DNA from: Dehalococcoidales bacterium
GTDB taxonomy: Bacteria > Chloroflexota > Dehalococcoidia > Dehalococcoidales > UBA5760
Length of the DNA: 64,000 nt
Assembly (NCBI GenBank): GCA_028716225.1
Contig: JAQUQE010000001.1
Coordinates: 1 to 64,000, forward strand
Direction of reading: 5' to 3'
Within the stretch, counting starts at the first letter, position 1. Each line of letters begins with the position of its first letter. This document shows, in pieces, positions 9,580-53,449 of this stretch. The notes under the pieces were generated by a model. It did no database searches, was not told the origin of the DNA, and worked only from the letters and a program-made list of their open reading frames with translations. Both the position numbers and the translations under genes were made by a program.

Positions 9580-10286
9580 GGTCGGTTGTTCTACAGCCCA
9601 CTTATTTGCCATGGATGGGCTACTTCGGGATGGTTGACGCTGCTGATATTTTTGTCTTTTACAATGATGTGCAGTTTTCACCTCAGTCTTGGCAACAGCG
9701 AAATAGGATTAAGACTTCTCAAGGCTGGATTTGGCTATCAGTGCCGGTTGTACGGCAATTCGGCTCAAAGATTAATGGTACCAGAATCAACAATAGCACC
9801 GATTGGAACAAAAAACACTGGGAATCTATAAAACAAAGTTACACCAAAGCCCCTTTTTTTGAACAATGGGCCCCGATTTTTAAGGAAGTTTATGATAATG
9901 AATGGGAATATCTCGCCGACTTAAATGTAACCCTCATTCAAAAAATAGCCAAGGCCTTGGGATTGGAAACGAAATTCGCTGTTTCTTCTGATTTAGAGAT
10001 TGGGGGCGTAAAAACAGAACGTTTGGTAAATACCCTGCAGAAAATAGGTGCTGATGAATATGTCAGCGGTCCTGGGGCAAAGGACTATATTGACGTTGAT
10101 AGCCTCAGGGAAAAAGGCATCAAACTGTATTGGTATGAATACCAACACCCGGTCTATCCCCAAATAAGAGGGGAGTTCGTGCCGTATTTGTCAGTAATCG
10201 ATCTGTTGTTTAACACTGGTGCAGAGGCAGTAAGGTATATAAGAGAAGGGGCGAAAGGTGTCATCAGATTAGAAGGGGAGGTGTAG
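9576..10286 (+). CDS. WbqC-like family protein
   Basis: A 236-residue member of the WbqC-like family, found in O-antigen and capsule clusters. The N-terminal signature VLQPTYLPWMGYFGMVDAAD followed by DVQFSPQSWQQRNRIK is diagnostic, as is the later GADEYVSGPGAKDYID. The biochemical role of the family is not settled; some members act in amino-sugar acylation or transfer in glycan loci. It overlaps the preceding epimerase gene by four bases. The stop is followed at once by a short truncated-looking frame, which suggests a following gene of this operon has been lost. Confidence 0.8.
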   Translation: MRSVVLQPTYLPWMGYFGMVDAADIFVFYNDVQFSPQSWQQRNRIKTSQGWIWLSVPVVRQFGSKINGTRINNSTDWNKKHWESIKQSYTKAPFFEQWAPIFKEVYDNEWEYLADLNVTLIQKIAKALGLETKFAVSSDLEIGGVKTERLVNTLQKIGADEYVSGPGAKDYIDVDSLREKGIKLYWYEYQHPVYPQIRGEFVPYLSVIDLLFNTGAEAVRYIREGAKGVIRLEGEV

Positions 10287-10289
10287 AAG

Positions 10290-10424
10290 GTGATAAGACC
10301 GGCGGCTGCTGATAAGTCATCACGTAGCAACGTAATGAGATTGCTGAGATGGCTGTTCAGGCTAGGTGGGGGAAGTAATTACCGCTTAGTTAATATTTAT
10401 CCGGGTGATGGCCGGCACGCTTGA
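10290..10424 (+). pseudogene. possible 5' stub of a lost glycan gene
   Basis: Directly after the WbqC-like gene an AAGGGGAGG site is followed by GTG and a frame of 44 codons (start VIRPAAADKSSRSNVMRLLR). The last 35 bases overlap the 3' end of the oppositely oriented toxin gene, where similarity to any protein would be meaningless. It may be the start of a gene cut off when the toxin-antitoxin pair arrived. Nothing else supports it. Confidence 0.2.
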
Positions 10425-10686
10425 TAACTACACAGCGATTTTCTCTATCAACAATATACCAAACCCTTGCGTCATTCTTGGTTACATCATACTGCAAAAT
10501 ACCTTTGTATCGGCCTTTTAGCTTCTTCAACCTGTTGTTGCTTTTTAGTCTATCTTCCGGTGTTTGCTCAAGATATTCCCTACATTCTTGCATAAAGTTT
10601 GGTAATTCCTGTTCTAAGGAAATCCAACTTTTTCTTGTTTGAACACTTCCAAACACTATCTCATATCTACGCATTAAGCCTGACAT
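10390..10686 (-). CDS. RelE/ParE-type toxin
   Basis: A small basic protein of 98 residues resembling RelE/ParE-superfamily toxins. The core reads LKGRYKGILQYDVTKNDARVWYIVDRENRCVVIKRAGHHPDKY: a basic strand pair, the RVWY strand and a final beta strand with HHPDKY, as in RelE/YoeB-like mRNA interferases. An upstream ATG (10686) and a second one (10674) are possible; the second overlaps the antitoxin stop by eight bases. Either way it is translationally coupled to the upstream antitoxin gene, the usual arrangement of type II systems. The pair interrupts the glycan operon on the opposite strand, which suggests acquisition. Confidence 0.65.
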   Translation of the reverse strand: MSGLMRRYEIVFGSVQTRKSWISLEQELPNFMQECREYLEQTPEDRLKSNNRLKKLKGRYKGILQYDVTKNDARVWYIVDRENRCVVIKRAGHHPDKY

Positions 10687-11125
10687 ACTTAGATTTGTCT
10701 GCTTTCTTCAATAGCTTCCGGGAGAGAGCAGGGTGCTTTGCTATTTCTGCAGTGGCCTCCCAATCGCCGAGCATTTCTTCTAAGATACCCCAGTTATCCG
10801 AAGCAAACGCCTCCTGATAAACCTTTAGTAACTCTAAAAAGAATTCCCTCTTCTCGCTGTCAGACAAATGAGCAACCCATGGTAATGGGGTAAGCACTCC
10901 GGTACGCTGTATATAGTTCTGGCAGAAATTGACCACCAAGTTCGTATAAAAAGCCTTTTCAGTAAGGTCTCTGAGTGTCTTACGATTTATAATAGTTACA
11001 GGCTCACCCTTATAGAATATTGTTATTGGACGACAACGGGCTGCCCCTAGCCATTTAGGCAATTGGTTTTTTAGGTCTGTAGAGTTAATAATCTCATCAT
11101 TAAAAACAGACGGAGCGAGTACCAT
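10667..11125 (-). CDS. Phd/YefM-like antitoxin with long C-terminal part
   Basis: The N-terminal half (EIINSTDLKNQLPKWLGAA, then PITIFYKGEPVTIINRKTL) resembles the Phd/YefM fold, which binds operator DNA and neutralises a partner toxin: a short strand, an amphipathic helix and a beta hairpin ending in xxxV/IINxxxL. At 152 residues it is nearly twice the usual Phd length; the added helical part (about 65-152, many Glu/Lys/Leu) ends in a basic KKADKSKY tail. It precedes and overlaps the RelE-type gene. The assignment depends partly on context. Confidence 0.6.
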   Translation of the reverse strand: MVLAPSVFNDEIINSTDLKNQLPKWLGAARCRPITIFYKGEPVTIINRKTLRDLTEKAFYTNLVVNFCQNYIQRTGVLTPLPWVAHLSDSEKREFFLELLKVYQEAFASDNWGILEEMLGDWEATAEIAKHPALSRKLLKKADKSKYVRLNA

Positions 11126-11325
11126 AGCAGCCTCCTTTTTCCCTTATTATGTACTTTATTTCGTACTCATTTTAGGCTACTATAGTGGTCATAATTTGTC
11201 AAGGGATAATTACCAAATAGAAAATATGAGAGTTGTTGCATTGGTTAAGTGGAGCGCCTATAATCGTGTTAGATATGGTGTTAACAATAGTTGGCGTCTT
11301 GTGTTACTTATAGAATTAGTCAAAG

Positions 11326-12384
11326 ATGAAAACAGCTTACATAGAAATCAACGGGCGTAAGATCGGACATCACTTCCCAGTTTATATTGTCGCTGAAATG
11401 TCGGCTAACCACAGCCAGGACTTTGACCAGGCGGTGAGGCTTGTTCAGAAAGCCAATGAGGTCGGAGCCGATGCCGTCAAGCTGCAGACTTATACGCCGG
11501 ATACTTTGACTATCGATGTTGGCTCCGACTTGTTTCGGCGTACCGAGGGGCTTTGGGCTGGCCTCACCCTTTATGATCTCTATAGTGAAGCTTATATGCC
11601 ATGGGAGTGGCAGCCTGAGCTGAAGAAGGTGGCCGACGATATAGGAATCGACTTGTTTTCCTCACCTTTCGACAGGACGGCAGTCGATTTTCTGGAAGAG
11701 ATGGACTGCCCAGCTTACAAGGTGGCTTCATTTGAAATAGTCGATATCCCTCTTATCGAGTATATTGCCGGTAAAGGTAAGCCGATAATAATCTCAACCG
11801 GCATGGCTACTCCGGATGAAATAGATGAAGCAGTACAAGTGGCAAGGGGGGCCGGTGTTTCCCAGATTGCGCTGCTTAAGTGTAGCAGTGTTTATCCGGC
11901 GCCAACGGAGGAGATGAATCTAAGGACCATCCCTCATCTGGCTGAGTCGTTTAGGCTGCCCGTTGGCGTTTCCGATCACACCCTGGGAATTACCGTGCCG
12001 GTAGTGGCAGTGGCATTAGGGGCTTGTATTGTGGAGAAGCACTTAACCCTTTCGCGGAGTATTCCAAGCCCCGATCAGGCCTTTTCTCTGGAGCCCGAAG
12101 AGTTTGGAAAAATGGTAGAGGCAATAAGAACTGCTGAGAAGGCACTGGGTGAAGTTCGCTATGGGATAAACGCACAAGATGCCAAAAGTCATAATTTTCG
12201 CCGCTCTCTGTTTGTGGTAAAGAATATGAAGGCAGGGGATATCTTCACCGAGGAGAATGTGCGTTCCATCAGACCGGGTTACGGCATTCACCCCCGTTAC
12301 TTAAAAGATGTACTGGGACAGCGAGCGGGACAGGATATTGAGCGGGGGACGCCAATAAGTTGGGAATTAATATGCAGACAATAA
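11326..12384 (+). CDS. pseI: nonulosonate synthase, PseI type
   Basis: A 352-residue NeuB-family aldolase that condenses phosphoenolpyruvate with a six-carbon amino sugar to give a nine-carbon sialic-acid-like sugar. Family blocks are AEMSANHSQDF, GADAVKLQTYTPDTLT, LFSSPFD, YKVASFEIVDIPLI, STGMAT, LLKCSSVYPAP and GVSDHTLG. RTEGLWAGLTLYDLYSEA and SPDQAFSLEP are more typical of pseudaminic acid synthases (PseI) than of NeuB. A SAF domain occupies about 290-350 (FVVKNMKAGDIFTEENVRSI). No clear ribosome site precedes the ATG. It follows the divergent toxin-antitoxin pair after a 200-base gap and probably starts a new transcript. Confidence 0.85.
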   Translation: MKTAYIEINGRKIGHHFPVYIVAEMSANHSQDFDQAVRLVQKANEVGADAVKLQTYTPDTLTIDVGSDLFRRTEGLWAGLTLYDLYSEAYMPWEWQPELKKVADDIGIDLFSSPFDRTAVDFLEEMDCPAYKVASFEIVDIPLIEYIAGKGKPIIISTGMATPDEIDEAVQVARGAGVSQIALLKCSSVYPAPTEEMNLRTIPHLAESFRLPVGVSDHTLGITVPVVAVALGACIVEKHLTLSRSIPSPDQAFSLEPEEFGKMVEAIRTAEKALGEVRYGINAQDAKSHNFRRSLFVVKNMKAGDIFTEENVRSIRPGYGIHPRYLKDVLGQRAGQDIERGTPISWELICRQ

Positions 12385-12446
12385 TTCCCAAAAGCTAATT
12401 CATCGTGAAGGTGATCATCGCTTCCGGCAGCGGATTCAGGCGGAGT

Positions 12447-13940
12447 TCAGAGAGTCGTATCCTCACCGCTATTAGGTTCTGTAGAATTTTTTCTGCGCAG
12501 TAGTCCGAGGAAGAACCGGAGCTCTGTTTTACTGAATCCCTTTGAAGCAATAAGGATACCGCCATAAATAGCTGCTCCGGCAAGCACAGTTACTACGGTA
12601 TCCAGATTTCCCTGTGGCGCCATTTGCCAGATGGCCAACGACATCACTGCCGATGCGATCAAGCTTTTACCGATGAAACGCCGGTCGATAGGAAACCTGA
12701 ACTCCCTAAAGGCAAAGTAGCTTATTACACCAAATGCCAGGGAGTAGGCAATCAGGGTGGTGATGGCGGCTCCCAGGATTCCCAGGCGGGGTACTACCAG
12801 TATGTTGAGGCCGATGTTGAGTCCGGCAGCGATTGCCCAGGTTATACCCAGTATCTTTGTCTTCTTGGCCAGTAGCAGATTATAGGATACTATATTGTGG
12901 ACGCTTAAGAACGAAACAGCCAGGGCGACTAAAGGAATAATAAGACGTCCTTGACTAGCTATCTCGTCGGTAGAAAAAAGCCTCAAAACTGACTCACCAA
13001 TGATGGCTGCTCCGAAGACGAAAGGAATAACTATCGCCAGAAGGTATTTTAGGGAGTAACTTAAATGATTCTTTACCTCATCCATTCTGCCTTCGTCGTA
13101 GAGCTTGGACAGGGTCGCCAGCAGAACAAAGGTCAATACTGTCGCAACGGAATAGGGGAGACTGCCTATCGAATAGGCAGCCGAGTATATGCCTACCGGG
13201 GCTGCCCCCAGAAAAAAGCCGATAACATAACGGTCGCTTAGGTTAACCAGCCAGAATGCGATACTCCTTGGTATAAGCGGTATGCTATAGCTCAGATATT
13301 CTTTTATCGGGGAAAAGCGCGGCCTTATTATGCCGACCTCCGATTTTATTAAGAAGAACAGGATGATAAGAGTAACAAGTTTTACCGCGACGGAAGCTAG
13401 TGCCACGCTAGTGACTCCGTGTCCATTTAGTACCAGATAGGCGATTAGCCCGAGTTGACCACACCCTTCAGCAATCATAAAAATTGAGAGCCTCTTTATT
13501 TGTCGGAATGTCCTTATCAGATTATGGTACAGTGCGACCAACGGACTTAATAGAATGAGGATACCGGTTATCTTTACCATCTCGACGGCGCCGTCGAAGA
13601 AGTTCACTGCGATGATATCGGTGAGGCCGAAACCTATTACTACTGCGGTGGTCAGATTGATCAGAAACGACATGGCTACCACGGAGTAAAATGATTCTTG
13701 AATCTTGTCCCTGTCCTTTTCCCCGGCGAGAAACCTTATCATGGCACCGCCCAGACCCAGTGCGGTAAAGGGTAGAACAAGACTTACCGTGGCATTGAGC
13801 TGTGACCATAGGCCATAATCATGGGCACCCAGGGTTTTTGTCAGTAGCGGCAGTTGAACTAACCCGATGACGAACTGTACGACGGTGGCGATCGCAATGA
13901 ATATCGTATCCCTGCCTGATTTTTGGTAAGAGCTGACCAA
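12447..13940 (-). CDS. Wzx-type polysaccharide flippase
   Basis: A 497-residue integral membrane protein with about 12-14 hydrophobic segments, of the MATE-like oligosaccharide flippase family that moves lipid-linked repeat units across the cytoplasmic membrane. The N terminus has the family pattern: GRDTIFIAIATVVQFVIGLVQLPLLTKTLG followed by DYGLWSQL, then LGLGGAMIRFLA. Several charged residues within membrane helices (for example R and K near the lumen-facing cavity) fit a polyprenyl-phosphate glycan exporter. It lies on the opposite strand from its neighbours and is convergent with the synthase gene. The short C-terminal tail (LRRKNSTEPNSGEDTTL) is polar. Confidence 0.85.
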   Translation of the reverse strand: MVSSYQKSGRDTIFIAIATVVQFVIGLVQLPLLTKTLGAHDYGLWSQLNATVSLVLPFTALGLGGAMIRFLAGEKDRDKIQESFYSVVAMSFLINLTTAVVIGFGLTDIIAVNFFDGAVEMVKITGILILLSPLVALYHNLIRTFRQIKRLSIFMIAEGCGQLGLIAYLVLNGHGVTSVALASVAVKLVTLIILFFLIKSEVGIIRPRFSPIKEYLSYSIPLIPRSIAFWLVNLSDRYVIGFFLGAAPVGIYSAAYSIGSLPYSVATVLTFVLLATLSKLYDEGRMDEVKNHLSYSLKYLLAIVIPFVFGAAIIGESVLRLFSTDEIASQGRLIIPLVALAVSFLSVHNIVSYNLLLAKKTKILGITWAIAAGLNIGLNILVVPRLGILGAAITTLIAYSLAFGVISYFAFREFRFPIDRRFIGKSLIASAVMSLAIWQMAPQGNLDTVVTVLAGAAIYGGILIASKGFSKTELRFFLGLLRRKNSTEPNSGEDTTL

Positions 13941-14128
13941 GCATCTCTCCTGCTTTGTGTGCTAACAGCCAGTATACAATAAAAGCCATTCTTGAAAACA
14001 GAGATTCCAGAAATGTTTAGAATATATTTAGAAATAGTCATTGACTTTCAACGTGCAGTAACTTATGTTTTTAATAGCGTGAGTGGTTATCCTGGAAATA
14101 GGTTCGCACTTGGTAGATACTCCCGTCA

Positions 14129-15301
14129 ATGAATGACGAGTACTTTCTAAGCTATCAAATAAAGTATAAGAGAGCATCTTTGAAGCGATTAGTAGTATTC
14201 TGCGGGTCGTATCCACAAATCAAAAATACCTTATACGTTGTAACCAGGATGCATCCCGATGTATCCGCTACCATTATAGTTCTTGCTAATCATGACCTTT
14301 TTAGATTTTTCGAGGTAATTAACGAAAAGGCGTTTCATAACAAACTCGACGTTTTATATTTGAAGACGTACCAAACACGCAGAGCTAAAGCTAATAGACT
14401 AATCCAGAGAGTATTCTATTTGCCACTCGATATCATAGGGGAAAAGCGTTATTTAAAGCTGATTTATGATACATGTTTTGGTGGATTAAAAGGAGCGCGG
14501 GTATTCTTTTCCAGCAGGTGCTTCTGTTCGTATACCTGGTATCTACTTAATAAGCTTAAGCGGGTAAATACTCTGGTTCATATCCCTGACCCATCCTGCG
14601 ATGCTCTGGCGATAGATAGGTCCAAACCGAAGGATATCTTCGAGCTGGCGTGGCTGGCCGTGATGAAGCTTACCTTTGGGTATGGTATAACGGTCGGCAG
14701 ACTCAGTTATACGAAATTCACCTGCATTCCGAATAGATTCATGGAAAAGGAAGTGGATAAAGCTTTCAGCATAGAAGAGCGCAACGAGATGATGAAGGAT
14801 TTCGATCTGGATAAGTTTGATGTTTTCGATGCCGGCAGTTATAAGGTGCTATATTTTGACCAGCCCATAGCGGGGACAGGCTGTGTTGATAATTATGATA
14901 CTTACAAGGTAGAGCTTGCTGCTATTTTCGCTATACTGAGAAAATATTTCTCTGAGCATGAGATAGCTATTAAATATCATCCGCATTATGTTACTGATAG
15001 AACCATGATGGAATTAGGAGTAGTGCTAGAGGATTTTATACCGGCAGAGTTTCTCTATAATGATAATATAAAAATGTATCTAGGTCTTTCTTCTATCGCC
15101 TTGGCCAATGTCAAGAAAGGGTTGGTGGTTTCCATAGCCGATCTAATTTCTCTCGCAAATGATGAACGCAGTAAGCAGTTAAAAGAGACATTAATACTAA
15201 GGAGTCGGTCGCAGATATTGTTTCCTGAGTCCCTGGAGGAATTTGAGCGGATAGTAGCCGGTGTTAGCGGAGTAAAAGGTGCTACGGCTGATAGGGGATA
15301 G
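14129..15301 (+). CDS. putative sialyltransferase-like glycosyltransferase
   Basis: A 390-residue protein of two apparent alpha/beta domains, compatible with a GT-B fold. In its C-terminal half it shows IAIKYHPHY followed some 25 residues on by IPAEFLY and then MYLGLSSIAL. This His-Pro plus Ser/Thr-Ser arrangement resembles bacterial sialyltransferases and polysialyltransferases (GT52 / polyST groups), where HP and an SS/ST pair bind the CMP donor. Given the CMP-nonulosonate genes around it, transfer of such a sugar is a sensible proposal. Overall similarity is faint to my eye. No ribosome site is evident before the ATG, so the true start could be downstream. Confidence 0.55.
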   Translation: MNDEYFLSYQIKYKRASLKRLVVFCGSYPQIKNTLYVVTRMHPDVSATIIVLANHDLFRFFEVINEKAFHNKLDVLYLKTYQTRRAKANRLIQRVFYLPLDIIGEKRYLKLIYDTCFGGLKGARVFFSSRCFCSYTWYLLNKLKRVNTLVHIPDPSCDALAIDRSKPKDIFELAWLAVMKLTFGYGITVGRLSYTKFTCIPNRFMEKEVDKAFSIEERNEMMKDFDLDKFDVFDAGSYKVLYFDQPIAGTGCVDNYDTYKVELAAIFAILRKYFSEHEIAIKYHPHYVTDRTMMELGVVLEDFIPAEFLYNDNIKMYLGLSSIALANVKKGLVVSIADLISLANDERSKQLKETLILRSRSQILFPESLEEFERIVAGVSGVKGATADRG

Positions 15302-15342
15302 AAGGGATTAGAAGAAATAACATCGGGAACGGAGGATTGAGT

Positions 15343-16305
15343 ATGATAAAAGCATTGGTTTGCGGAGCGGGCGGCTTTATCGGCAGCCACCTGGTCAAAA
15401 GACTAAAGGATGTGGGCTACTGGGTAAGAGGAGTAGACTTGAAATACCCTGAATTCAGGCAAACTCATGCCGATGATTTTGTCATCGGTGATTTAAGGGA
15501 TCCCCTCATCTGCAAGGAGGTTACCGACCGGCCTTTCGATGAGCTTTACCAGCTTGCCGCCGATATGGGCGGTGCCGGTTTTGTCTTCTCCGGCGACAAC
15601 GATGCGGATATCATGCACAATTCCGGGCTGATAAACCTGAATATGGTTGAAGCCTGCTATAAGGCTGGTGTGAAGAAGATATTTTATTCTTCATCGGCAT
15701 GTATTTATCCTCAGTATAACCAGATGGATCCGGATAATCCGAAGTGTTCCGAGGACTCTGCCTATCCGGCATATCCCGATAGTGAATACGGCTGGGAAAA
15801 GCTGTTCAGCGAGCATCTCTATCTGGCCTTCAGGAGAAACTACGGCATGGACGTGCGTATTGCGCGCTTCCATAATATTTTTGGCCCGGAGGGTTCCTGG
15901 AATGACGGCCGTGAAAAAGCGCCGGCCGCTTTCTGCAGGAAGGTTGCCGAAGCACCTGACGGCGGAGAGATCGAGATGTGGGGTGACGGGCTACAGACCC
16001 GTTCTTTTCTATACATTGATGAGTGTCTGGATGGTGTCCGCAGATTGATGGAATCCGACTTTGTCGGTCCGGTGAATATCGGCTCTGAAGAAATGGTGTC
16101 CATTAACCGGCTGGCGGAAATGATCATGAATATCGCCGGGAAGAGTCTTTCCATCAAGCATATTTCCGGCCCTCTTGGCGTCCGGGGCAGGAACTCGGAC
16201 AACCGGTTGATTGAGGAGAAGATCGGTTGGAAGCCGTCGAATCCGTTGAGGGAAGGATTGGAAAAAACCTACCGATGGATTGAAAAAATGGTGAGGAAGG
16301 AATGA
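15343..16305 (+). CDS. GDP-mannose 3,5-epimerase homologue
   Basis: A 320-residue extended SDR closely resembling plant GDP-mannose 3,5-epimerase, which makes GDP-L-galactose and GDP-L-gulose. Shared blocks include LAADMGGAGF, YSSSACIYP, ARFHNIFGP, GREKAPAAFCRK, EMWGDGLQTRSFLYIDEC, GPVNIGSEEMVS and GVRGRNSDN. The catalytic set is complete: Cys120, Tyr149, Lys153 and Lys192, which sit at a constant offset of 25 from the Arabidopsis residues Cys145, Tyr174, Lys178 and Lys217. The GGAGGA site at 15331 is six bases before ATG 15343; a TTG two codons earlier abuts the ribosome site and is unlikely. Its stop overlaps the next gene as ATGA. Confidence 0.88.
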   Translation: MIKALVCGAGGFIGSHLVKRLKDVGYWVRGVDLKYPEFRQTHADDFVIGDLRDPLICKEVTDRPFDELYQLAADMGGAGFVFSGDNDADIMHNSGLINLNMVEACYKAGVKKIFYSSSACIYPQYNQMDPDNPKCSEDSAYPAYPDSEYGWEKLFSEHLYLAFRRNYGMDVRIARFHNIFGPEGSWNDGREKAPAAFCRKVAEAPDGGEIEMWGDGLQTRSFLYIDECLDGVRRLMESDFVGPVNIGSEEMVSINRLAEMIMNIAGKSLSIKHISGPLGVRGRNSDNRLIEEKIGWKPSNPLREGLEKTYRWIEKMVRKE

Positions 16306-17639
16306 AAGCAATTTCTGTTATCGGCATCGGTAAGCTGGGGTTTCCCATCGTCGCCTGTTTTGCCCATAAGGGCTACAAGGTTATCGGAGTTGATGTCAAT
16401 CCCGACCTGGTGCAGGCAGTGAACAACCGAAAGCCCGTTATCAATGAACCCGGTCTTGCCGATTTGTTGAGGGAGCCGGTGGACCTGTCCGCAACCGGTG
16501 ATTACGCGTATGCCATTAAGAATTCCGTGATGACCTTTATCGTTGTGCCCACACCCAGCCGGGAAGACGGCAGCTTCTCCACAGAGTACGTGGAGGCTGC
16601 TGTCGGGCAAATAGCCGCCGTGCTGAAGAATAAGGATGACTTTCATGTGGTTGTGCTTACCAGTACGGTCCTTCCCGGTGCTACCGAAGGAGTAGTGATA
16701 CCTCTGCTGGAAAGGGTCTCCGGGAAGAAGTGCGGGCGAGACTTTGGTTTGTGTTACAGTCCGGAGTTTATTGCCCTTGGCAGCGTAATTTGGGATTTCT
16801 TAAACCCCGATGTAATCCTGATTGGCGAGTCGGATGCGAAATCTGGAGATCTACTGTCCGAAGCTTACCGGGGGGTCTGCGATAACGATCCGCCGATGGT
16901 GAGGACCAATATCAACAGTGCCGAACTGGCCAAGATATCGCTGAATGCTTATGTTACTATGAAAATAAGCTTCGCCAACACCCTTGCCGAGCTTTGCGAA
17001 CGTGTACCCGGGGGTGATGCCGAGGCGGTGAGTAGAATGCTGGGCTTCGACTCACGGATAGGCAGAAAGTACCTGTTAGGTGCTCTTGCTTATGGGGGTC
17101 CCTGCTTCCCCAGGGACAACAGGGCCTTCGCCCACTTTGCGGAGCGGGTTGGTTGTGAAGCCAAGCTTGCTAAAGCCACCGACGAAGAAAATGCGCACCA
17201 GAGTCAACGGATAGCGGCAATGGTCAAGGAAAAGCTGGGTACATTGAACGGTAAAAACATTGCTATTCTCGGCTTGACCTATAAGCCGAATACCGATGTT
17301 ATCGAGGAGTCGGCGGCGGTCAAACTGGCGGCTGCTCTGTTACAGGGAGGGGCCGAGTTGTCACTCTATGATCCATTGGCGATGCCGAATGCCAGAAAAG
17401 TCCTCAGGGAGGATAATGTTAGATACGCCGCTTCGGCAGAGGAATGTCTGCGAGGCGCCGATTTCTGTATCCTGGCAACCCCGTGGGATGAGTTCAGGAA
17501 CCTGAGGGCTCGTGATTTCGTTGAGAATATGAGGCAGCCCGTACTGCTTGATTGCTGGCGTCTGTTCAACCGGACTGAATTCAGCAAAGGGATGGATTAC
17601 ATAACTATCGGACTAAATTCAGGAGTTAAAGATGGATAA
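16302..17639 (+). CDS. UDP-glucose/GDP-mannose dehydrogenase family enzyme
   Basis: A 445-residue nucleotide-sugar dehydrogenase that oxidises C6 of an NDP-sugar to the uronic acid in two NAD-dependent steps. The N-terminal NAD motif is SVIGIGKLGFP, followed by GVDVN with the adenosine-ribose Asp. The catalytic Cys268 lies in YGGPCFPRDNRAF, and the C-terminal UDP-binding domain has ILGLTYKPNTDVIEES and DPLAMPNARK. Substrate may be UDP-glucose, UDP-ManNAc/GlcNAc or GDP-mannose; sequence alone does not settle it. It overlaps the epimerase gene upstream by four bases and the methyltransferase gene downstream by eight, so four genes here form one coupled unit. Confidence 0.85.
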   Translation: MKAISVIGIGKLGFPIVACFAHKGYKVIGVDVNPDLVQAVNNRKPVINEPGLADLLREPVDLSATGDYAYAIKNSVMTFIVVPTPSREDGSFSTEYVEAAVGQIAAVLKNKDDFHVVVLTSTVLPGATEGVVIPLLERVSGKKCGRDFGLCYSPEFIALGSVIWDFLNPDVILIGESDAKSGDLLSEAYRGVCDNDPPMVRTNINSAELAKISLNAYVTMKISFANTLAELCERVPGGDAEAVSRMLGFDSRIGRKYLLGALAYGGPCFPRDNRAFAHFAERVGCEAKLAKATDEENAHQSQRIAAMVKEKLGTLNGKNIAILGLTYKPNTDVIEESAAVKLAAALLQGGAELSLYDPLAMPNARKVLREDNVRYAASAEECLRGADFCILATPWDEFRNLRARDFVENMRQPVLLDCWRLFNRTEFSKGMDYITIGLNSGVKDG

Positions 17640-19319: not shown

Positions 19320-19350
19320 TCGTCGGTGCGCTGATTCGGGGGGAGGGTCA
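19320..19350 (+). repeat. solitary IS3-type terminal repeat
   Basis: This 31-base stretch matches the right terminal repeat of the IS3 copy at 5888-5918 in 25 of 31 positions, including the GGTGCGCT core and the final TCA. All six differences replace A or T by G. No other element sequence adjoins it. Its final TCA is, on the minus strand, the TGA stop codon of the neighbouring ABC ATPase gene. Confidence 0.6.
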
Positions 19351-20055
19351 ACGTGGTTCCGGTACGATTTTAGAGTTCAGTTCATCGCTGATTATTCTGC
19401 CGTCCCGGACCTCGACGATGCGGTCGGTGTGTGAAGCTACCGTCCGATCATGAGTGACTACGATAAAGGTGGTATTGAACTCATTCTTTATTTCTCCAAA
19501 TAGCCGGCAGACGTTTTGTGTGGTTACCGAATCCAGATTGCCGGTGGGTTCATCGGCCAGTATTATGCTGGGGCTGTTCATCAGTGCCCGGGCAATCGCC
19601 GTTCGTTGCTGTTCTCCTCCCGAGATCTGTGTCGGCAGTCTCTTCTCGAGCTTTGCTATACCCACGAGATCCAGGAGATTTCTGGCTCTATTCAGTACCT
19701 GCCCGGATTGACTTCTGTTGTGTATTAGATGCGGTATCAATACGTTTTCCAGAACGGTAAACTCCGGCAGCAGATAGTGGAACTGGAACACGAATCCGAT
19801 TGTCCTGTTCCGAACTTCGGCCATCTGCTTTCTGTTCATGCCGGATACGAGGTTGCTGGCAATGGTTACCTCGCCGCTGGTCGGCGTATCCAGAATGCCC
19901 ATAATATTCATCAGTGTACTTTTGCCGCTGCCGGACTCGCCGACTATTGCCGAGCAAGTCTTTGCTTCGAAACTCAGGTTGATATCGAATAATACCTGAG
20001 TCTGGTAGGCACCGGAATATATTTTGTTAACTCCCGATAGTTCCAGGGTAATCAT
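19348..20055 (-). CDS. ABC exporter ATPase, LolD/MacB type
   Basis: A 235-residue ATPase of the LolD/MacB/FtsE group that powers an FtsX-like permease, usually for lipoprotein, peptide or envelope-stress export. Motifs are Walker A GESGSGKST, Q-loop FVFQFHYLLPEFTVLEN, signature ISGGEQQRTAIARAL, Walker B SIILADEPTG and H-loop FIVVTHD. It starts one base after the permease stop, forming a two-gene operon. Its stop codon is the terminal TGA of a solitary IS repeat, so the original C terminus may have been longer; the core domain is nevertheless complete. Confidence 0.88.
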   Translation of the reverse strand: MITLELSGVNKIYSGAYQTQVLFDINLSFEAKTCSAIVGESGSGKSTLMNIMGILDTPTSGEVTIASNLVSGMNRKQMAEVRNRTIGFVFQFHYLLPEFTVLENVLIPHLIHNRSQSGQVLNRARNLLDLVGIAKLEKRLPTQISGGEQQRTAIARALMNSPSIILADEPTGNLDSVTTQNVCRLFGEIKNEFNTTFIVVTHDRTVASHTDRIVEVRDGRIISDELNSKIVPEPR

Positions 20056-20056
20056 T

Positions 20057-21217
20057 TTAACCCTCTCTGATCACATCGACCGGGTTCAGTTTCAGAGACC
20101 GTCTTGCTGGGATTAAACCGGCCAAAGTTGATGACGATATCGCTATCACCCACGAGCGAATGATAAAGTTGTAGTCAATATAGATTTCAATCAGAGCTGT
20201 ACCTTCAGCACTTGACGTAAAGGTATTAAAAGCATAGAGCAGACCGAGGCCAAGTGCGATGCCTACTGTGGCACCTATCAAGCCGATCAGCAACCCTTGA
20301 AAAACGAAAATGAGACTGGCGTCGCGATCCGTAATTCCCATGGCTTTCAGAATGCCCAATTGCCGGGATTTTTGCAGTACCGTAATCGAAAGGACGCTGG
20401 AAATAGCTACCACTACTGAGGCTAGTACAACCCCCTGAATAACGCCGCTGGATATCGATTGGCCTTCCAGTCCGCTCAGGAGCTCCTCGTTTTGGTCCTT
20501 CCAGTTCGTTACCTCGATATCTTCGTTGTCGACTGCTTCCTCTATCCGGGCGGCGATCTTGTCGGCATCGAAAAGCCTGTCCTGATCGACGGTCATTATT
20601 ATCCCCGTTATCCTGTCCCGGTAGCCAAAAAGGCGCTGCGCTGCAACCAGGTTGGTGATCACCCAGGATCTGTTGATACTCTCGATACCCAGGTCATAGA
20701 ATCCGGCTACCTCGAAGAGGTTAACCCCGCCGTCGGGAGTAAGGATGGGAAGCTTATCTCCTATTTCGACCTCCAGTTCCTCTTCCAGACTTCTCCCGAT
20801 CAGTACCTGTTTTAGAGACTGTATTTGCTCCCCCTGGTATATCGATTCAGATATTCCGTAGATTCGGTCTGCGCTTTCAAAATCAAACCCCTGTACCAGT
20901 ATCGGTAATATACCGTTGTCATTAGGTACCGAGGCATTGCCGGCAGCGGTAACGGATATCTTATCCAGGCCGTCGACACCCCGGACTTGATTGACGATAA
21001 TCTCCCAGTTCTTAATCGTATTGGTGTCTCCGGCCGGACGTATTGTTATCTGTGGCTGATTGCCTATCGTGCTGTTGACCAGGCTAATCTGTAAGCCGAT
21101 TATCAGCAAACCGACAAATATCTGCACCGAGACGGCGATAGCTATTCCGAATACAATCAGGGCTGTCTGTCCCTTGCCTGATTTCAGAAACCTGGTGGCG
21201 ATTTTCAGGGGAAGCAA
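20057..21217 (-). CDS. FtsX/LolE-type ABC permease
   Basis: A 386-residue permease of the FtsX/MacB/LolCE type: one N-terminal membrane helix (about 17-42), a large extracytoplasmic domain (about 43-260) with MacB periplasmic-core character, then three membrane helices (about 262-285, 305-330 and 350-372). The FtsX-like block reads VVVAISSVLSITVLQKSRQ followed by LGILKAMGITDRDA, which contacts the ATPase. It is the first gene of the pair. The transported substrate is unknown; lipoprotein release in the Lol sense does not apply directly to a monoderm envelope, so drug, peptide or stress-related export is more likely. Confidence 0.85.
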   Translation of the reverse strand: MLPLKIATRFLKSGKGQTALIVFGIAIAVSVQIFVGLLIIGLQISLVNSTIGNQPQITIRPAGDTNTIKNWEIIVNQVRGVDGLDKISVTAAGNASVPNDNGILPILVQGFDFESADRIYGISESIYQGEQIQSLKQVLIGRSLEEELEVEIGDKLPILTPDGGVNLFEVAGFYDLGIESINRSWVITNLVAAQRLFGYRDRITGIIMTVDQDRLFDADKIAARIEEAVDNEDIEVTNWKDQNEELLSGLEGQSISSGVIQGVVLASVVVAISSVLSITVLQKSRQLGILKAMGITDRDASLIFVFQGLLIGLIGATVGIALGLGLLYAFNTFTSSAEGTALIEIYIDYNFIIRSWVIAISSSTLAGLIPARRSLKLNPVDVIREG

Positions 21218-21439: not shown

Positions 21440-22381
21440 CTATCGAATGATCAGTAGCCCCACTAAAGCCAGAGCAGCGATGGGCGGCAGGGCGGGTACC
21501 GCCTTGCCTTTGAGGAAAACGGCCTGTATCAGGTAGGCCAGCGCCAGTCCCGAGAGAGCGAAGGCTGCCGTGATGGTGGCCGTAGCCAGGCCGTGGGCGA
21601 AATAGACCGAAGTTGTGAGCAGGCAGGGGAAGGCTATGTCGCCTCCACCGAGTAAGGAGTATTCGCGTTCGTCAGGCTGCTGCTCGACTACATTGGTGAT
21701 AACCCCTTTTCTCAAGTCGGCTCCCCAGTGCGAAGGATTCTTGGGAATGATGAATGCCGGTAACACTCCTACTTTAGACAGCTTGCCGGTTAACCAGAGC
21801 ATTAAGCCGCGACGCACCGCAATGAAGTCGTAGATTGCCAGTGCTCCCATTATAGCCATAACTGTCCAGGGTGTGATGAAGTGGCCGAAAACGGCTCCCA
21901 CACTGGCCAGTGCCAGAATCAGGGCTAAATTGTGAAACCAAACTCGTGGTATCAGGAACCAGATGATGGCTACGGCAGAGGCTATGCCGAGTGCTCCCGC
22001 AAGAGGCATCCAGAAGACACAGGCGATAAATGATCCCCAGGCGAATAGGAAGGCGAAAAGTATTCTCAAGGTTAGTATCAGGGTTGACAGCGGAACTCGT
22101 AGCAATATTATCACGATCACTGCCGTTGCGACGAGGAAGTAGATTATTACCGGACCCAGTGATGAATAGGCAGGTACTTGAGTCACCTCACCCGAAGGTG
22201 TCGTTGCCGGGCCGGGCCACACGGATATCGTCTGATCGGGTTGGGCGGGCATGTATATGTTGTTGGCTTCTAAGAACGAGGTTTCCTGCGATGCGATCGA
22301 GATAGTGAGTATCTGGGCCACGATAAAGAACAGGACGGCGATGAATACAGGATGCTGTTTGGTCAGTCTTATTATTTTCAT
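21440..22381 (-). CDS. presenilin-like (A22) intramembrane aspartyl protease
   Basis: A 313-residue membrane protein with about nine hydrophobic segments. It carries all three hallmarks of presenilin/signal-peptide-peptidase proteases in order: a YD pair at 184-185 (AIYDFIAVRRG), the GxGD-type motif LLGGGDIAFP with Asp248, and PALP at 296-299. These proteases cut substrates inside the membrane, with the two Asp residues catalytic. Archaeal homologues such as PSH are characterised; bacterial ones are little studied. The loop between the two catalytic helices (SKVGVLPAF to DEREYS) is polar, as expected. Neighbours give no hint of a substrate, though several lipoprotein and secreted genes lie close by. 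Confidence 0.82.
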   Translation of the reverse strand: MKIIRLTKQHPVFIAVLFFIVAQILTISIASQETSFLEANNIYMPAQPDQTISVWPGPATTPSGEVTQVPAYSSLGPVIIYFLVATAVIVIILLRVPLSTLILTLRILFAFLFAWGSFIACVFWMPLAGALGIASAVAIIWFLIPRVWFHNLALILALASVGAVFGHFITPWTVMAIMGALAIYDFIAVRRGLMLWLTGKLSKVGVLPAFIIPKNPSHWGADLRKGVITNVVEQQPDEREYSLLGGGDIAFPCLLTTSVYFAHGLATATITAAFALSGLALAYLIQAVFLKGKAVPALPPIAALALVGLLIIR

Positions 22382-22799: not shown

Positions 22800-23537
22800 C
22801 TACTCCATCCGCTCTCCTTCCCATGATTGCCATGAGCCCGAAGAGTCGTAACGCCAATGGCCGGTGAAGGAATTACCGTCTGCGGACATGGTGAACTCGA
22901 TATCTCCGGCATCTTCAGGAGGTATATGGGTCGGGTCCTCTGACCAGGTTCCTATCAGGGTGTTCCCATTGTCTCCTGTTGCGGTGGCTGTCAGTATCCC
23001 TCCCTGGTAGGTGTATGTGCCGGTTACCCGTTCACCTGACTGGGACAATGTCATTATCCCCCATATCCCGCAATCCCATTGCCCGCTCCAGTTTGCCTCT
23101 AATGAAGGGCTGACTGGCTCTGGCGTCGGCTCTTCCCGCGGTTCAATCTTCAATATGGTAGTAGCTTCCTCCGACCAGTCTCCATTATTGTCCTGGACTA
23201 TCAGGCGGATAACGTGGTCTCCTTCGGAAAGCGACGTAGTTTCAAAGTTGGCGGTGGTGCCCAGGTCGCCGTCCTGGCTGGAACTCCAGAGGTAGGCTAC
23301 TACCGAGCCATCGTCATCGGTTCCATGACCCTGGAAAGAAACAGGGTCTCCCTGAACTGCCTCGGTTGGGATAATAGAGTATATATAGGCAACTGGCAAA
23401 AGATTGGCGGTAACAGGGGCGGGCGTTGGCTCCGGTAGCGGGGTTGTGGTCGGGCCAGTAGGAATGAAAGGCAGGCAACTGATTGACATAAGTCCTGCAA
23501 TTGCCGCGATAATGATGGCTGGAGTTAGCTTATTCAT
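22800..23537 (-). CDS. PKD-domain lipoprotein
   Basis: A 245-residue exported lipoprotein. The signal peptide ends in a lipobox (LMSISC, Cys about 21). A Pro/Thr-rich spacer follows, then a PKD-like beta-sandwich (about 48-130: GDPVSFQGHGTDDDGSVVAY and GDHVIRLIVQDNNGDWSE), a second Pro-rich linker, and a C-terminal beta-rich domain (about 145-245) with repeated Trp/Gly blocks (WSGQWDCGIWG, GTWSEDP, GHWRYDSSGSW), resembling small lipocalin-like or protein-binding sheets. Function is unknown; presentation on the outer face of the membrane is the likely location. Confidence 0.75.
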   Translation of the reverse strand: MNKLTPAIIIAAIAGLMSISCLPFIPTGPTTTPLPEPTPAPVTANLLPVAYIYSIIPTEAVQGDPVSFQGHGTDDDGSVVAYLWSSSQDGDLGTTANFETTSLSEGDHVIRLIVQDNNGDWSEEATTILKIEPREEPTPEPVSPSLEANWSGQWDCGIWGIMTLSQSGERVTGTYTYQGGILTATATGDNGNTLIGTWSEDPTHIPPEDAGDIEFTMSADGNSFTGHWRYDSSGSWQSWEGERME

Positions 23538-24390: not shown

Positions 24391-25701
24391 CTAAAACAGG
24401 GACTTAAACCAGTTAACGAAGGATTCCCAAAGACTGATAAATTGATCGCCCCAACTACCCCATGAATCAGGCTCTGAAGAATCATCATCTTCGAGGTCCT
24501 CATAGAAACTCTGCCAACCGGCTTTTTCTTCGTCAACGTCGAAGCTCGATACCTCGCTGATTCCACTATCTGTGGCGGTTGCCTGCTTGCCTGCTTCTAA
24601 CGTTACCGTTTCATCGTAATCATAAGCGGTGAATTCGACCGATCCCTCAATAACCTTGATCGTATCAGAATCCTCGGTAACCTCAACGACAAAATTGGTA
24701 CCCTCGATGCCGACAACTGCTCTATTGAGAGAAACCTCATACTTTTGGGCTCCAGCCTCTCCCTTAGGAAAATAGAAGTTCGAAATTCCTTCCCACAATC
24801 TGCCCACAGCGACACCGTATGGTGTGTATTGACTAACGGAAGGCTGGCGTTCAAACCAGCTTCTTTCCTTCTGTCTATACATAGCACCAGTGTGTGTTCT
24901 TATAACTGTCTCGGCCCCTGAGGGAGTCCTTACCGTCCAATTTTCACCAATAAATATGTTGTTTTCACCAGTGCTAGAATAGTCACCGGGCATTATCTTA
25001 ACCCAGTTTCTCTGCGATGGTGGGAGCGAAGGCGGATCTGCTGAAATGTATATCGGATTGCCCTCAACTTTAGTAATATAACACAGCCCCCTTGTAGTTA
25101 AATCAACATCGGGAAGACTATCGATTAGAGGACCTGGCGGCGGGTCCTCTGCTGTTTGCGGCGGTGTCGGCGAAGGCATGCTTGTGCTTGAACCAGCACC
25201 AAACGTCCCGCTGACAACCAGCCCTCTATCGCCGGCATTGTAATGGCCTGTCATACTGATGGAGAAGCTGCCACCGGTAGCTCCCGTGGGGATCGGCACA
25301 GATATGGTGAAGGATTCTTCATTGAAACCGGGGAAGCCGCTCGGGATGTTTGTGGTGAACTGATCGGTTTCACCTCCGCACGATACGGTTGCGCTTACGT
25401 CGGCATCATAGCCATTTCCCATTTTAGCGGAACCGGAAATAGTCAGTTGTCCTGTTCCTAATGTGCCGCTTAAAGTACGGCTAGTTGTGAAACCCCATTC
25501 ATCGCTAGTATCGGTAACGGTAGCTCCTGAAATGTCATAGTTGATCTGCATTCCATTGAACGGTTCGTCCGGGAATGTACCGCCTTCTGCCATAACATCA
25601 GATGGGGGCATAATTACAGTCGGTAGCATTGTCGCCAGGCAGAGTGTTACCACTGCCATGGTACGTACACGTTTCCGCAGAAGGGTTCTTAATATCATCA
25701 T
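24391..25701 (-). CDS. exported FecR-domain protein
   Basis: A 436-residue exported protein. A basic start and hydrophobic stretch (TMAVVTLCLATMLPTVIMPP) form a signal peptide. Residues 45-180 look like a beta-rich adhesion-type domain. A FecR-like domain covers about 235-375, with WTVRTPSGAETVIRTHTGAMY and then VVGIEGTNFVVEVTEDSDTIKVIEGSV and LEAGKQA, as in FecR regulators and FecR-like surface proteins. An acidic spacer leads to the end FISLWESFVNWFKSLF. That tail closely matches the end of the 28487-31288 protein. No FecI-type sigma factor is nearby, so signalling is not implied. Confidence 0.75.
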   Translation of the reverse strand: MMILRTLLRKRVRTMAVVTLCLATMLPTVIMPPSDVMAEGGTFPDEPFNGMQINYDISGATVTDTSDEWGFTTSRTLSGTLGTGQLTISGSAKMGNGYDADVSATVSCGGETDQFTTNIPSGFPGFNEESFTISVPIPTGATGGSFSISMTGHYNAGDRGLVVSGTFGAGSSTSMPSPTPPQTAEDPPPGPLIDSLPDVDLTTRGLCYITKVEGNPIYISADPPSLPPSQRNWVKIMPGDYSSTGENNIFIGENWTVRTPSGAETVIRTHTGAMYRQKERSWFERQPSVSQYTPYGVAVGRLWEGISNFYFPKGEAGAQKYEVSLNRAVVGIEGTNFVVEVTEDSDTIKVIEGSVEFTAYDYDETVTLEAGKQATATDSGISEVSSFDVDEEKAGWQSFYEDLEDDDSSEPDSWGSWGDQFISLWESFVNWFKSLF

Positions 25702-28486: not shown

Positions 28487-31288
28487 TTACGAAAAAAGGG
28501 ATTTAACCCAGGTGATGAAGGAATCCCAAAGGCTCTTGAATTTGTCAAACCAGCCGCCTCCTGCGGTCGAATCCAGGAAGTCGTCATCTTCAGCTGCCCA
28601 CCAGAAGTCATCTTCTGTTACAGGGCTAATTGCGGATACTGTTTCTCCATCAACGGATGCAGAATTATCCGCGGATACGGTAGTGCCTGCCCCGGTTGAT
28701 TCGGGGGTGTCCACGACAAGTTCACCTTCCAGGCAGTGAACCTCAATATTGTCTCCGGCGGCAACGGCAAACTCGGTATTCAGTCCGGTGACCACTGCCT
28801 TCGGACTATATGTCCACCATTCTCCATCCTGCGATTGCTTGATGTTGACAGGTACAGTGAAGTGGCCGTTCTCCTTGCTGCGGAAGCTGGCACTCCCTTG
28901 CCAGAGGCGTACCTCAACCAGTTGGGGAGAACAATAACCAAGGAAGATCTCACTGTCCGGATCTAGGAAGATAATCCCCCAGGGGGTGTCGTTTATGGTC
29001 AGGTGTAAGATTGCCTTCGAATCCGGGCCGGTACGTAAGCTTTGAAAGGAATCGAACTGCGTTGGGCTGGATGTCAGCTTAGTCTCATGGCTGCCGGACG
29101 CATCATAACTTACGAGGTATACATCCCTCCAGTATTTAAAGACTTCGACATGCGAACCTGCTAACTGTGGCCGCCAAATGTCGCTGGTGAGCCAGGTTTT
29201 TACCTGCTCCCACGTATTCAAATATTCGGTGATGGCTACATAGGGGACAGCGGGAATGTCCGGGGAGTGCTTTACGTCAGCCTCAGTCACGCTGGCTACG
29301 CCATTCAGATAGGCTGATGCTGAACTGACTACCCAGTCATCAGGAAACCCGTATATGTTGCCGTACTGTATCTCGGTATTGAGGTGGGCGCCGGTTGCCT
29401 CGCCGCTGTTGAGCGTTTTCATAAACGGACTCTCGGAATAGAGTTGTTCTGCCGGGAGCCTGTGCGTCTGGTACCACCCGGCGCCGACATTTCCGGTTAC
29501 CTTCTTGGTCCAGGAAACGCCATGATTCGGCGTTCCGACCATTATCAGTTTCCTGAGATCGCCTTCGTAGCCTGTGAGGCCATGTGAGTAATAGCGGGAA
29601 ATAAGTCCGCCCATGCTATGGCCGACCGCATCCACCTTGGCCAGTTTGAGGTTAGCGTTGGAGTAGTCTGACTTCTGCTTCCTGATGTCGTTCTTTAATA
29701 TCACTGATAGCCCTTCGATAGACTGGCCGGTAGCACCGTAATTACCCAGGTAGGTATCGAACTTCTCTCCCTGCAGGTAACTGGACAGCTTGCCCCATGT
29801 AGCCGTAGCTCCGAGAAAGCCGTGCACCAGCATTACCGGAGGGCGGCATACCAGGATTTCGGCCTCTATCTTCCCTTCCTGATCGCTGGCATCGGTATAG
29901 GTTAAGGTTAAGGGAACCTCAGCCGCCCATACCCTGGAGCCTGATTGATGCACGCCTAATTCTTCTCGAGTAAGTTGACTCGTGGTGAGATAATCCGGCG
30001 GATAGTAGGTAATCTCGGCCATGCCGGCGGAATCCAGGATTATGTTACCGGTGGTACCTATGGCACTCCCTTCCAGTCTGCCGAGATCCGGCTGGCTGAT
30101 TTTAACGTTACTAAACCCCGGCAGTGAAATAGACATACCCAGAGAGCTGACTCCATCTGCGGTAACGCCGACGAATGGCTCCCCCGTCGCGGGATTCATT
30201 TCCACCAGAAGTCCAATGTCCCCCACGATGAAGGTGGTGCTGTTGCTCACACTGGGATATGCGGAATGGGATGCCGTCGCCGAAACAGTGTAAACAGCCT
30301 GGGTAGCATCCGCGGGTATGGCGAATTCACAGCGGTAATTACCGGATGAGTCGGTGGTCGCTGAAAACTGGGTGCCGCTGACATCAACGGCCACGGCAGC
30401 ACCGGCCAGCTTACCCTGTATATCTGAAACACCGCCCTGAATAACTACCGTCTCTCCCGCAGTATAGGCCTTCTTATCGGTGGTAAGACTTAAGCTTATC
30501 CCTTCAGCAAGTGGACATCCGCTGGCATCCACGGCAACTCCTGCCGGAGTACCCGGACACTGGTCTATGTCATCGGCAACTCCGTCCCCGTCCGAGTCTT
30601 GAGTCAGAACGGTTCCCCCCTCGTCGGTTAACAGGCCATACTTAATTGCATTAGCATATAAGGCCTCGGCTATCTCATCGTGGGAAATGCCGACGTCGAT
30701 ACTGAGTCCTGCGTAAAAGAGGAAGCGGCCTGCTTGCCAGTCTATACTGGTACCACCCAAAGAACTGATATCGCTAATAATAGCGGGATGGTTGTGAAAC
30801 GTTGTTACCTCAAAGCCGGCCATGGATGAGGATGAGACTGTCGCAATGCTTTTAGCTATCGAAGCCTCTGCTGCCGCTTCGGTGGTGTATGCCTGGATTT
30901 TCATCGGCAGCGACTGCCAAACCGCCCCTTGTTCAGGTATTGGAACATCCAGGCCATAGGCAGCCACGCCTTCTATTATCTCCCATTCACCCCCTTTTGA
31001 TTCATACTGTACCCTCGGGCCCCATATCTCAGGACAATAGTAGGGGGCTTCGGCACCCTCGTGAGCAGGCGTACCGTAGAAACAAAAGCTCTGGTCCCAG
31101 CCGAACTCGGCACCTGCCTCCGCCAGAACCTGTTTGATGGTTGCTTCCTGTGAGTCGCTTGGCGCTGATGTATAGGCCAGCGCTGTCTTCGCGGGTAAAA
31201 TAGCGCTTAGCCCCATCATTGCGAAGAGCATCGTTATAGCGACGAGGGTAATCAAAAGTTTCCCGGTAATCCCCACTCTTGTCTTCAA
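28487..31288 (-). CDS. large exported lipase-like / FecR-like protein
   Basis: A 933-residue exported protein. After a signal peptide (KLLITLVAITMLFAMMGLSAIL) comes a region of unknown function, a thrombospondin type 3-like Ca-binding piece (DSDGDGVADDIDQCPGTPAG near 240), an Ig-like repeat (about 270-350), an alpha/beta-hydrolase domain (about 480-700; oxyanion PPVMLVHGFLG, nucleophile Ser558 in VGHSMGG), then a FecR-like beta region (about 760-880) and the tail FDKFKSLWDSFITWVKSLF. The hydrolase part resembles PGAP1/lipase-type esterases. The other catalytic residues (Asp, His) I could not place firmly. The tail is shared with the 24391-25701 protein. Confidence 0.78.
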   Translation of the reverse strand: MKTRVGITGKLLITLVAITMLFAMMGLSAILPAKTALAYTSAPSDSQEATIKQVLAEAGAEFGWDQSFCFYGTPAHEGAEAPYYCPEIWGPRVQYESKGGEWEIIEGVAAYGLDVPIPEQGAVWQSLPMKIQAYTTEAAAEASIAKSIATVSSSSMAGFEVTTFHNHPAIISDISSLGGTSIDWQAGRFLFYAGLSIDVGISHDEIAEALYANAIKYGLLTDEGGTVLTQDSDGDGVADDIDQCPGTPAGVAVDASGCPLAEGISLSLTTDKKAYTAGETVVIQGGVSDIQGKLAGAAVAVDVSGTQFSATTDSSGNYRCEFAIPADATQAVYTVSATASHSAYPSVSNSTTFIVGDIGLLVEMNPATGEPFVGVTADGVSSLGMSISLPGFSNVKISQPDLGRLEGSAIGTTGNIILDSAGMAEITYYPPDYLTTSQLTREELGVHQSGSRVWAAEVPLTLTYTDASDQEGKIEAEILVCRPPVMLVHGFLGATATWGKLSSYLQGEKFDTYLGNYGATGQSIEGLSVILKNDIRKQKSDYSNANLKLAKVDAVGHSMGGLISRYYSHGLTGYEGDLRKLIMVGTPNHGVSWTKKVTGNVGAGWYQTHRLPAEQLYSESPFMKTLNSGEATGAHLNTEIQYGNIYGFPDDWVVSSASAYLNGVASVTEADVKHSPDIPAVPYVAITEYLNTWEQVKTWLTSDIWRPQLAGSHVEVFKYWRDVYLVSYDASGSHETKLTSSPTQFDSFQSLRTGPDSKAILHLTINDTPWGIIFLDPDSEIFLGYCSPQLVEVRLWQGSASFRSKENGHFTVPVNIKQSQDGEWWTYSPKAVVTGLNTEFAVAAGDNIEVHCLEGELVVDTPESTGAGTTVSADNSASVDGETVSAISPVTEDDFWWAAEDDDFLDSTAGGGWFDKFKSLWDSFITWVKSLFS

Positions 31289-43922: not shown

Positions 43923-44030
43923 CGATACATGGATAGTAAAGATGCTGTGTCTTTTGATAGTAGGCATGTAACTTTTGGCGGAATAAGGCGTTCTAGAATT
44001 GTAGAAGGATAGTAATAAAGGGGGGTGCCA

Positions 44031-53236: not shown

Positions 53237-53250
53237 ATTTCGAAAAAACT

Positions 53251-53349
53251 AATCTCCGAGCTACTTTATACCTAAAGGTCATCCTATGGTGAGTAGCCGT
53301 GAGGGTATCACTAGAAATGGTGATGCCTCCCGTGTTAGGAAAGGAGATT
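53251..53349 (+). promoter_or_regulatory. Moco/Tuco RNA motif (riboswitch)
   Basis: The 99-base element closes with AATCTCC (53251) and GGAGATT (53343), a perfect seven-base outer stem. A second stem pairs GCTACT with AGTAGC, and a third pairs ATCAC with GTGAT around TAGAAATG. The 3' part GCCTCCCGTGTTAGGAAAGG closely matches the end of the E. coli moaA leader (GCCTCCCGTATCTGGAAAGG), the defining Moco motif region. The AAGGAG ribosome site for the next ORF is part of the closing stem, so ligand binding would hide it. Molybdenum or tungsten cofactor is the expected signal; Tuco is suggested by the tungstate transporter downstream. Confidence 0.85.
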
Positions 53350-53350
53350 T

Positions 53351-53449
53351 ATGTCGGCCATCATATTCTCACCTTATGATAACCATCCTGATATCAGATT
53401 TTCATTTTTCGCACCCTGTTTTACCGACAGCCGGAGGTTGGATTGGTAA
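53351..53449 (+). CDS. leader ORF coupled to wtpB
   Basis: A 32-codon frame starting with ATG right after the riboswitch, whose closing stem contains its AAGGAG ribosome site (spacing four). The peptide is MSAIIFSPYDNHPDIRFSFF followed by APCFTDSRRLDW, hydrophobic and aromatic at first and basic near its end. Its TAA overlaps the TTG start of the permease gene (53443). Translation of the leader would open or re-initiate at that TTG. This makes the riboswitch act on the permease by translational coupling. It may have no function as a peptide. Confidence 0.5.
   Translation: MSAIIFSPYDNHPDIRFSFFAPCFTDSRRLDW

Follow-up and report, generated by a model that had tools for sequence, protein, structure and literature searches.

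A probable bacterial presenilin-type intramembrane protease in the Dehalococcoidia (Chloroflexota)

Introduction

Presenilin is a membrane-embedded protease linked to Alzheimer's disease; in gamma-secretase it is the catalytic subunit of a complex with nicastrin, APH-1 and PEN-2. Proteases of this type are discussed as eukaryotic and archaeal. An open reading frame in 64,000 nucleotides of DNA (the whole stretch that was analysed, hereafter the window) from an uncultured Chloroflexota (Dehalococcoidia) bacterium had been read, from its letters alone, as a bacterial presenilin-like protease. This locus raises the questions of whether the gene is a genuine and active bacterial member of the family, which membrane segments such an enzyme would cut, and how widely it is distributed. 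The presenilin/SPP family itself is already known, and notable is the host, where the family has been little discussed. Among the open-access papers searched, none described a presenilin-type protease in Chloroflexota, earlier mention of bacterial members being conceivable, and none contained both Dehalogenimonas and presenilin.

The gene and its catalytic motifs

The gene and its relevant parts are as follows.

21440..22381, minus strand: predicted gene for a presenilin/SPP-type (Pfam PF06550) intramembrane aspartyl protease of 313 aa, with an ATG start and nine predicted transmembrane (TM) helices, N-in
21827..21832, minus strand: codons of Y184-D185 (first catalytic Asp; TM6, 171-190 in the model), invariant in alignments
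21638..21649, minus strand: codons of G245-G246-G247-D248 (GxGD, second catalytic Asp at the start of TM7, 247-263), invariant in alignments and preceded by a β-strand (241-245)
21485..21496, minus strand: codons of P296-A297-L298-P299 (PAL motif at the start of TM9, 298-312), P296 and P299 invariant
22160..22264, minus strand: codons 40-74, a predicted extracytoplasmic TM1-TM2 loop without Lys or Arg, of variable length within the family

All three motifs lie where the sequence-only reading had placed them, and its residue numbering was confirmed. In the first 15 homologues aligned, all of them from the same taxonomic order, every motif residue except L298 is invariant. Y184, D185, G245-G247, D248, P296 and P299 are equally invariant in 38 more diverse sequences, an alignment that takes in one Nealsonbacteria and one Diapherotrites sequence. 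The dN/dS ratio between two 95%-identical copies in related genomes of the same lineage is about 0.09, and the gene is therefore under purifying selection. Given this low ratio, and since YD and GxGD are in register with PF06550 and with archaeal PSH over most of the protein length, the motifs are not a product of chance.

The same conservation bears on the idea that the main function of the fold is that of a cation leak channel or a scaffold, and not of a protease. A dual activity, as protease and as ion channel, has been reported for archaeal presenilin-like GxGD proteases (Kuo et al. 2015, cited in PMC7997004). However, the invariance of both catalytic Asp residues, of GxGD and of the PAL prolines is the signature of selected catalysis, which makes a non-proteolytic main function improbable.

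Affiliation with the presenilin/SPP superfamily

In a whole-genome profile search the protein matched PF06550 (SPP, signal-peptide peptidase/presenilin aspartyl protease) with 31.3 bits, above the curated gathering cut-off of 23.9. A default Pfam hmmscan of the same protein returned no match; because the genome search exceeded the cut-off, this blank is most likely an effect of the speed filter. The comparison with Pfam SPP and A22 models, which had been proposed together with the original reading, is thus blank in the plain scan but positive by score, and does not refute that reading. Among 15 family members, 11 matched PF06550 in hmmscan and four also matched Peptidase_A22B. The NCBIfam model of archaeal PSH (NF041679) was matched with an E value of 1.4e-12 and 47.8-48.2 bits, below its equivalog cut-off of 125. 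The sole sequence match in the PDB was PSH of Methanoculleus marisnigri (E 2e-6 with the protein alone, 1e-12 with the family profile), and in this alignment YD and GxGD are in register, with PALP opposite the GLPP of PSH. With PF06550 over its cut-off and NF041679 far under 125, the protein is, as judged from sequence, a member of the presenilin/SPP superfamily, homologous to PSH but not its equivalog.

PSH (MCMJR1, PDB 4HYC) shares with the window protein the nine-TM fold, the aligned YD and GxGD and a single-subunit architecture. The two differ in that identity is only about 22-23%, the window protein falls into a separate clade, has PALP in place of GLPP and a longer TM1-TM2 loop, and resides in a bacterial host.

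Predicted structure

The AlphaFold2 model, built on the 38-sequence alignment, has nine membrane helices with a pLDDT of 87.2 and a pTM of 0.87. Helices span residues 11-39, 75-95, 98-122, 127-143, 147-166, 171-190 (with D185), 193-204, 247-263 (with D248), 265-288 and 298-312; the strands are 209-213 and 241-245. D185 is placed well within TM6 and D248 where TM7 begins, and the two helices are adjacent, so the model bears out the expectation that both Asp residues sit on neighbouring helices within the membrane. TM6, a TM6a-like helix, two strands and TM7 follow one another in presenilin order; helix 193-204 occupies the place of presenilin TM6a, and the strands are at the place where presenilin forms its substrate-binding sheet (PS1/PSH; compare PMC9282858).

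The best structural match by VIA-align was human SPPL2a (Z 23.1, 245 residues, rmsd 2.7 Å), followed by human PSEN1 (Z up to 20.8, 255 residues) and PSH (Z 20.1, 229 residues, rmsd 3.1-3.2), and the first unrelated fold appeared at Z 5.5. The 21 best Foldseek matches were all presenilin, PSH or SPPL2a. With human presenilin-1, the catalytic subunit of gamma-secretase, the model shares the fold, the motif order, a predicted cytoplasmic catalytic loop, and the TM6a-like helix and strands flanking the TM6-TM7 loop; however, identity in structure alignments is 18-21%, and the cytoplasmic loop is short, lacking the long insertion of PS1. Relative to SPPL2a and the signal peptide peptidase family (A22B), the window protein has the opposite predicted orientation, no PA domain and PALP instead of QPALLY. 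Overall, the PF06550 score, the nine-helix fold and the Asp pair on adjacent helices support the assignment as a presenilin-like intramembrane protease well.

A type IV prepilin peptidase-like enzyme (A24) would have the GxGD motif in common with the window protein, and such peptidases are frequent in bacteria. Their Asp residues are, however, located in soluble regions and cleavage takes place outside the membrane (PMC2947513), whereas the model puts D185 inside TM6 and D248 in TM7, and a PAL motif is present. Sequence matches were to PF06550 and PSH and the top folds were all presenilins, so that we regard a prepilin peptidase as very improbable. No prepilin peptidase was named in the Foldseek or VIA-align lists, an absence that carries no weight on its own.

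Membrane orientation and expected substrates

With helices taken from the model, the window protein has 15 Lys and Arg residues in predicted inside loops versus one outside. The mean over the 38 sequences is 15.9 inside versus 1.9 outside, with the inside count higher in all 38, and the excess persists in short loops alone, that is, without the N-terminus, the C-terminus and the long TM6-TM7 loop. By the positive-inside rule, this charge bias predicts the orientation of presenilin, with the N-terminus and the TM6-TM7 loop in the cytoplasm and the C-terminus outside. Expected substrates would therefore be type I (N-out, C-in) segments.

This matters for the possibility that the protein is a signal-peptide peptidase, clearing the leftover signal peptides of exported proteins in place of SppA. 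Several observations point that way: the family is named SPP, SPPL2a is the closest structural match, S49/SppA is absent from the window genome and from most of the order (present in 11 of 83 genomes), and all four genomes with a strong SppA lack presenilin. Signal peptides are, however, N-in. The SPP/SPPL enzymes, which act on and cut such type II (N-in) segments (PMC7366577), have catalytic domains reversed relative to presenilin, as stated in the title of a study cited there (Friedmann et al. 2004), and the orientation of signal peptide peptidase (N-out, TM6-TM7 loop outside) is the opposite of the one predicted for all 38 sequences. The tendency of SppA and presenilin to avoid each other falls short of significance (Fisher p 0.12-0.21), with many genomes lacking both, and replacement of SppA is accordingly a trend only. 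The predicted type I substrates argue against signal-peptide clearing, and we consider this function unlikely.

Genomic context

The immediate neighbours of the gene in the window are listed below.

22800-23537, minus strand: PKD-domain lipoprotein gene, on one side of the presenilin gene
20057-21217 and 19348-20055, minus strand: LolC/LolD-like ABC pair on the other side, with the permease gene about 222 bp from the presenilin gene

Lipoproteins and exported proteins encoded nearby had been suggested as substrates. This was not supported: the neighbourhood is conserved within the genus and nowhere beyond it, no conserved neighbour points to a substrate, and no C-terminal membrane helix was found in the three nearest exported proteins (22800, 24391 and 28487). 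Lipoproteins are, besides, not obvious substrates for an enzyme in the predicted presenilin orientation. Elsewhere the recurrent neighbours are housekeeping or generic genes, namely a radical SAM gene followed by LepA, a DUF3795 gene with an alkyltransferase-like gene, a methyltransferase with a flavodoxin-like gene, ABC ATPases and, at four loci (L050, L051, L056 and L076), a trypsin-like protease gene that comes after the presenilin gene and lies on its strand. The last arrangement could suit a two-step cascade of membrane proteolysis and is given here as a lead only.

Further along the window, a 560-aa Big_6-domain protein (44025-45707, plus strand) seems to end in one membrane helix with a basic tail behind it, a type I-like C-terminus. 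It is conceivable as a type of substrate and has no other link to the protease.

Other features of the window

Two unrelated exported proteins, a FecR-domain protein (24391-25701, minus strand, 436 aa) and an alpha/beta-hydrolase (28487-31288, minus strand, 933 aa), share an almost identical C-terminal tail, in which an acidic stretch precedes an amphipathic end rich in Trp and Phe (...SLWESFVNWFKSLF and ...SLWDSFITWVKSLFS). Two related loci (L019 and L020) retain both tails, which are possibly a sorting or membrane-binding signal. A Moco (molybdenum cofactor) riboswitch (53242-53362, plus strand, 77.7 bits) lies just upstream of a gene pair (53443-55280) that probably specifies a molybdate transporter, consisting of an ABC permease and a TOBE-domain ATPase. 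A fused mannosyl-3-phosphoglycerate synthase and HAD phosphatase (48459-50504, plus strand), with probable function in synthesis of the osmolyte mannosylglycerate, adjoins a GH38 alpha-mannosidase gene (50554-53094, minus strand). A surface-glycan cluster (8566-17639, plus strand) encodes an epimerase, WbqC, NeuB and a UDP-sugar dehydrogenase, with a flippase-like gene on the opposite strand.

Distribution and phylogeny

Close homologues belong to Dehalococcoidia/Dehalococcoidales (Chloroflexota). The gene occurs in 38 of the 83 genomes of the order that are at least 85% complete, a patchiness which implies that it is not essential to the group, and in 13 of 301 sampled genomes of the phylum, all from the same order or the same class. 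In one genus (g44) all eight genomes carry it, seven of them assembled in one contig, while none of three genomes does in another genus (g9) of the same family (f9). These are probably Dehalogenimonas and Dehalococcoides, respectively, a naming based in part on the 20-53 reductive dehalogenase matches per genome in both. Outside Chloroflexota, PF06550 was matched in 11 of 287 genomes from the phylum of the Nealsonbacteria locus, in 41 of 81 relatives of a Diapherotrites archaeon and, among 14 named control genomes, only in Haloferax volcanii and Methanosarcina acetivorans. In the genus to which the window belongs (G001-G008), presenilin is present in a 2.6 Mb genome and two others, and absent from six assemblies of 0.8-1.1 Mb, one of which is 98% complete.

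In an unrooted tree of 71 sequences, with which a quick tree agrees, the 40 Dehalococcoidia proteins group in a single clade (support 100/100), whose stem measures 1.65 changes per column. Patescibacteria sequences lie next to it (45-row group, 98/96), and these two together with three sequences from archaeal relatives form a 53-row group (100/99) apart from PSH. The PF06550 proteins of Patescibacteria and DPANN-like organisms are therefore nearest in the tree and have the same motifs, across a long and fully supported stem. As the tree has no root, it gives no direction of transfer.

An archaeal gene misplaced in a bacterial genome during assembly might be suspected, since archaea are the hosts in which the family is best known and the host genome is a draft of 156 contigs. 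Against this, same-genus copies in other assemblies keep the same neighbours, homologues sit on single-contig Dehalococcoidia genomes, and the Dehalococcoidia sequences make up one clade. The single-contig genomes refute archaeal contamination, the chance of which is negligible, and the bacterial host assumed in the sequence-only reading is borne out by the homologues and their single bacterial clade.

A tie to organohalide respiration as a simple rule was rejected, because the window genome has no reductive dehalogenase match and the presenilin-negative probable Dehalococcoides have 20-27. The link with genome size is weak (medians 1.7 and 1.5 Mb, p 0.07). Replacement of site-2 protease was also rejected, since M50 is found in every genome of the order (83 of 83).

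Proposed function

With a probability of roughly 85%, we infer that the window protein is a bacterial representative of the presenilin/SPP superfamily and competent for catalysis, a nine-helix membrane protease in presenilin orientation that would cut type I (N-out, C-in) segments. In the proposed mechanism, D185 in TM6 and D248 in TM7 would activate water to break a peptide bond within the membrane, and the unwound substrate would be held in β-strand form by the PALP loop together with the strand that precedes GxGD. From its orientation, the enzyme would act on type I single-pass proteins or on stubs left by a protease acting outside. It may work alone, without partners of the gamma-secretase kind. 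Archaeal PSH, the closest solved relative, works without nicastrin, APH-1 and PEN-2 (PMC2947513) and cuts APP C99 alone in vitro (PMC9282858, PMC2947513). No report of activity was found in the literature for any bacterial member. The physiological role could be clearance of membrane stubs or regulated intramembrane proteolysis.

A more far-reaching and rather doubtful version would have a vertically maintained presenilin lineage in Dehalococcoidia that performs regulated intramembrane proteolysis of type I proteins as a counterpart of gamma-secretase signalling, in some lineages maybe after the neighbouring trypsin-like protease has cut outside.

Significance

The gene encodes a real bacterial protein of the presenilin type, probably an active protease. 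Its branch is also found in closed genomes of organohalide-respiring bacteria, which makes the natural job of the enzyme testable there, and its presence in probable Dehalogenimonas versus absence in probable Dehalococcoides of the same family offers a natural plus/minus comparison. As a small single-chain enzyme it would be useful for work on mechanism. Study of this branch could reveal the work of presenilins in simple cells and the way in which the family came to be distributed over Patescibacteria, DPANN archaea and Chloroflexota.
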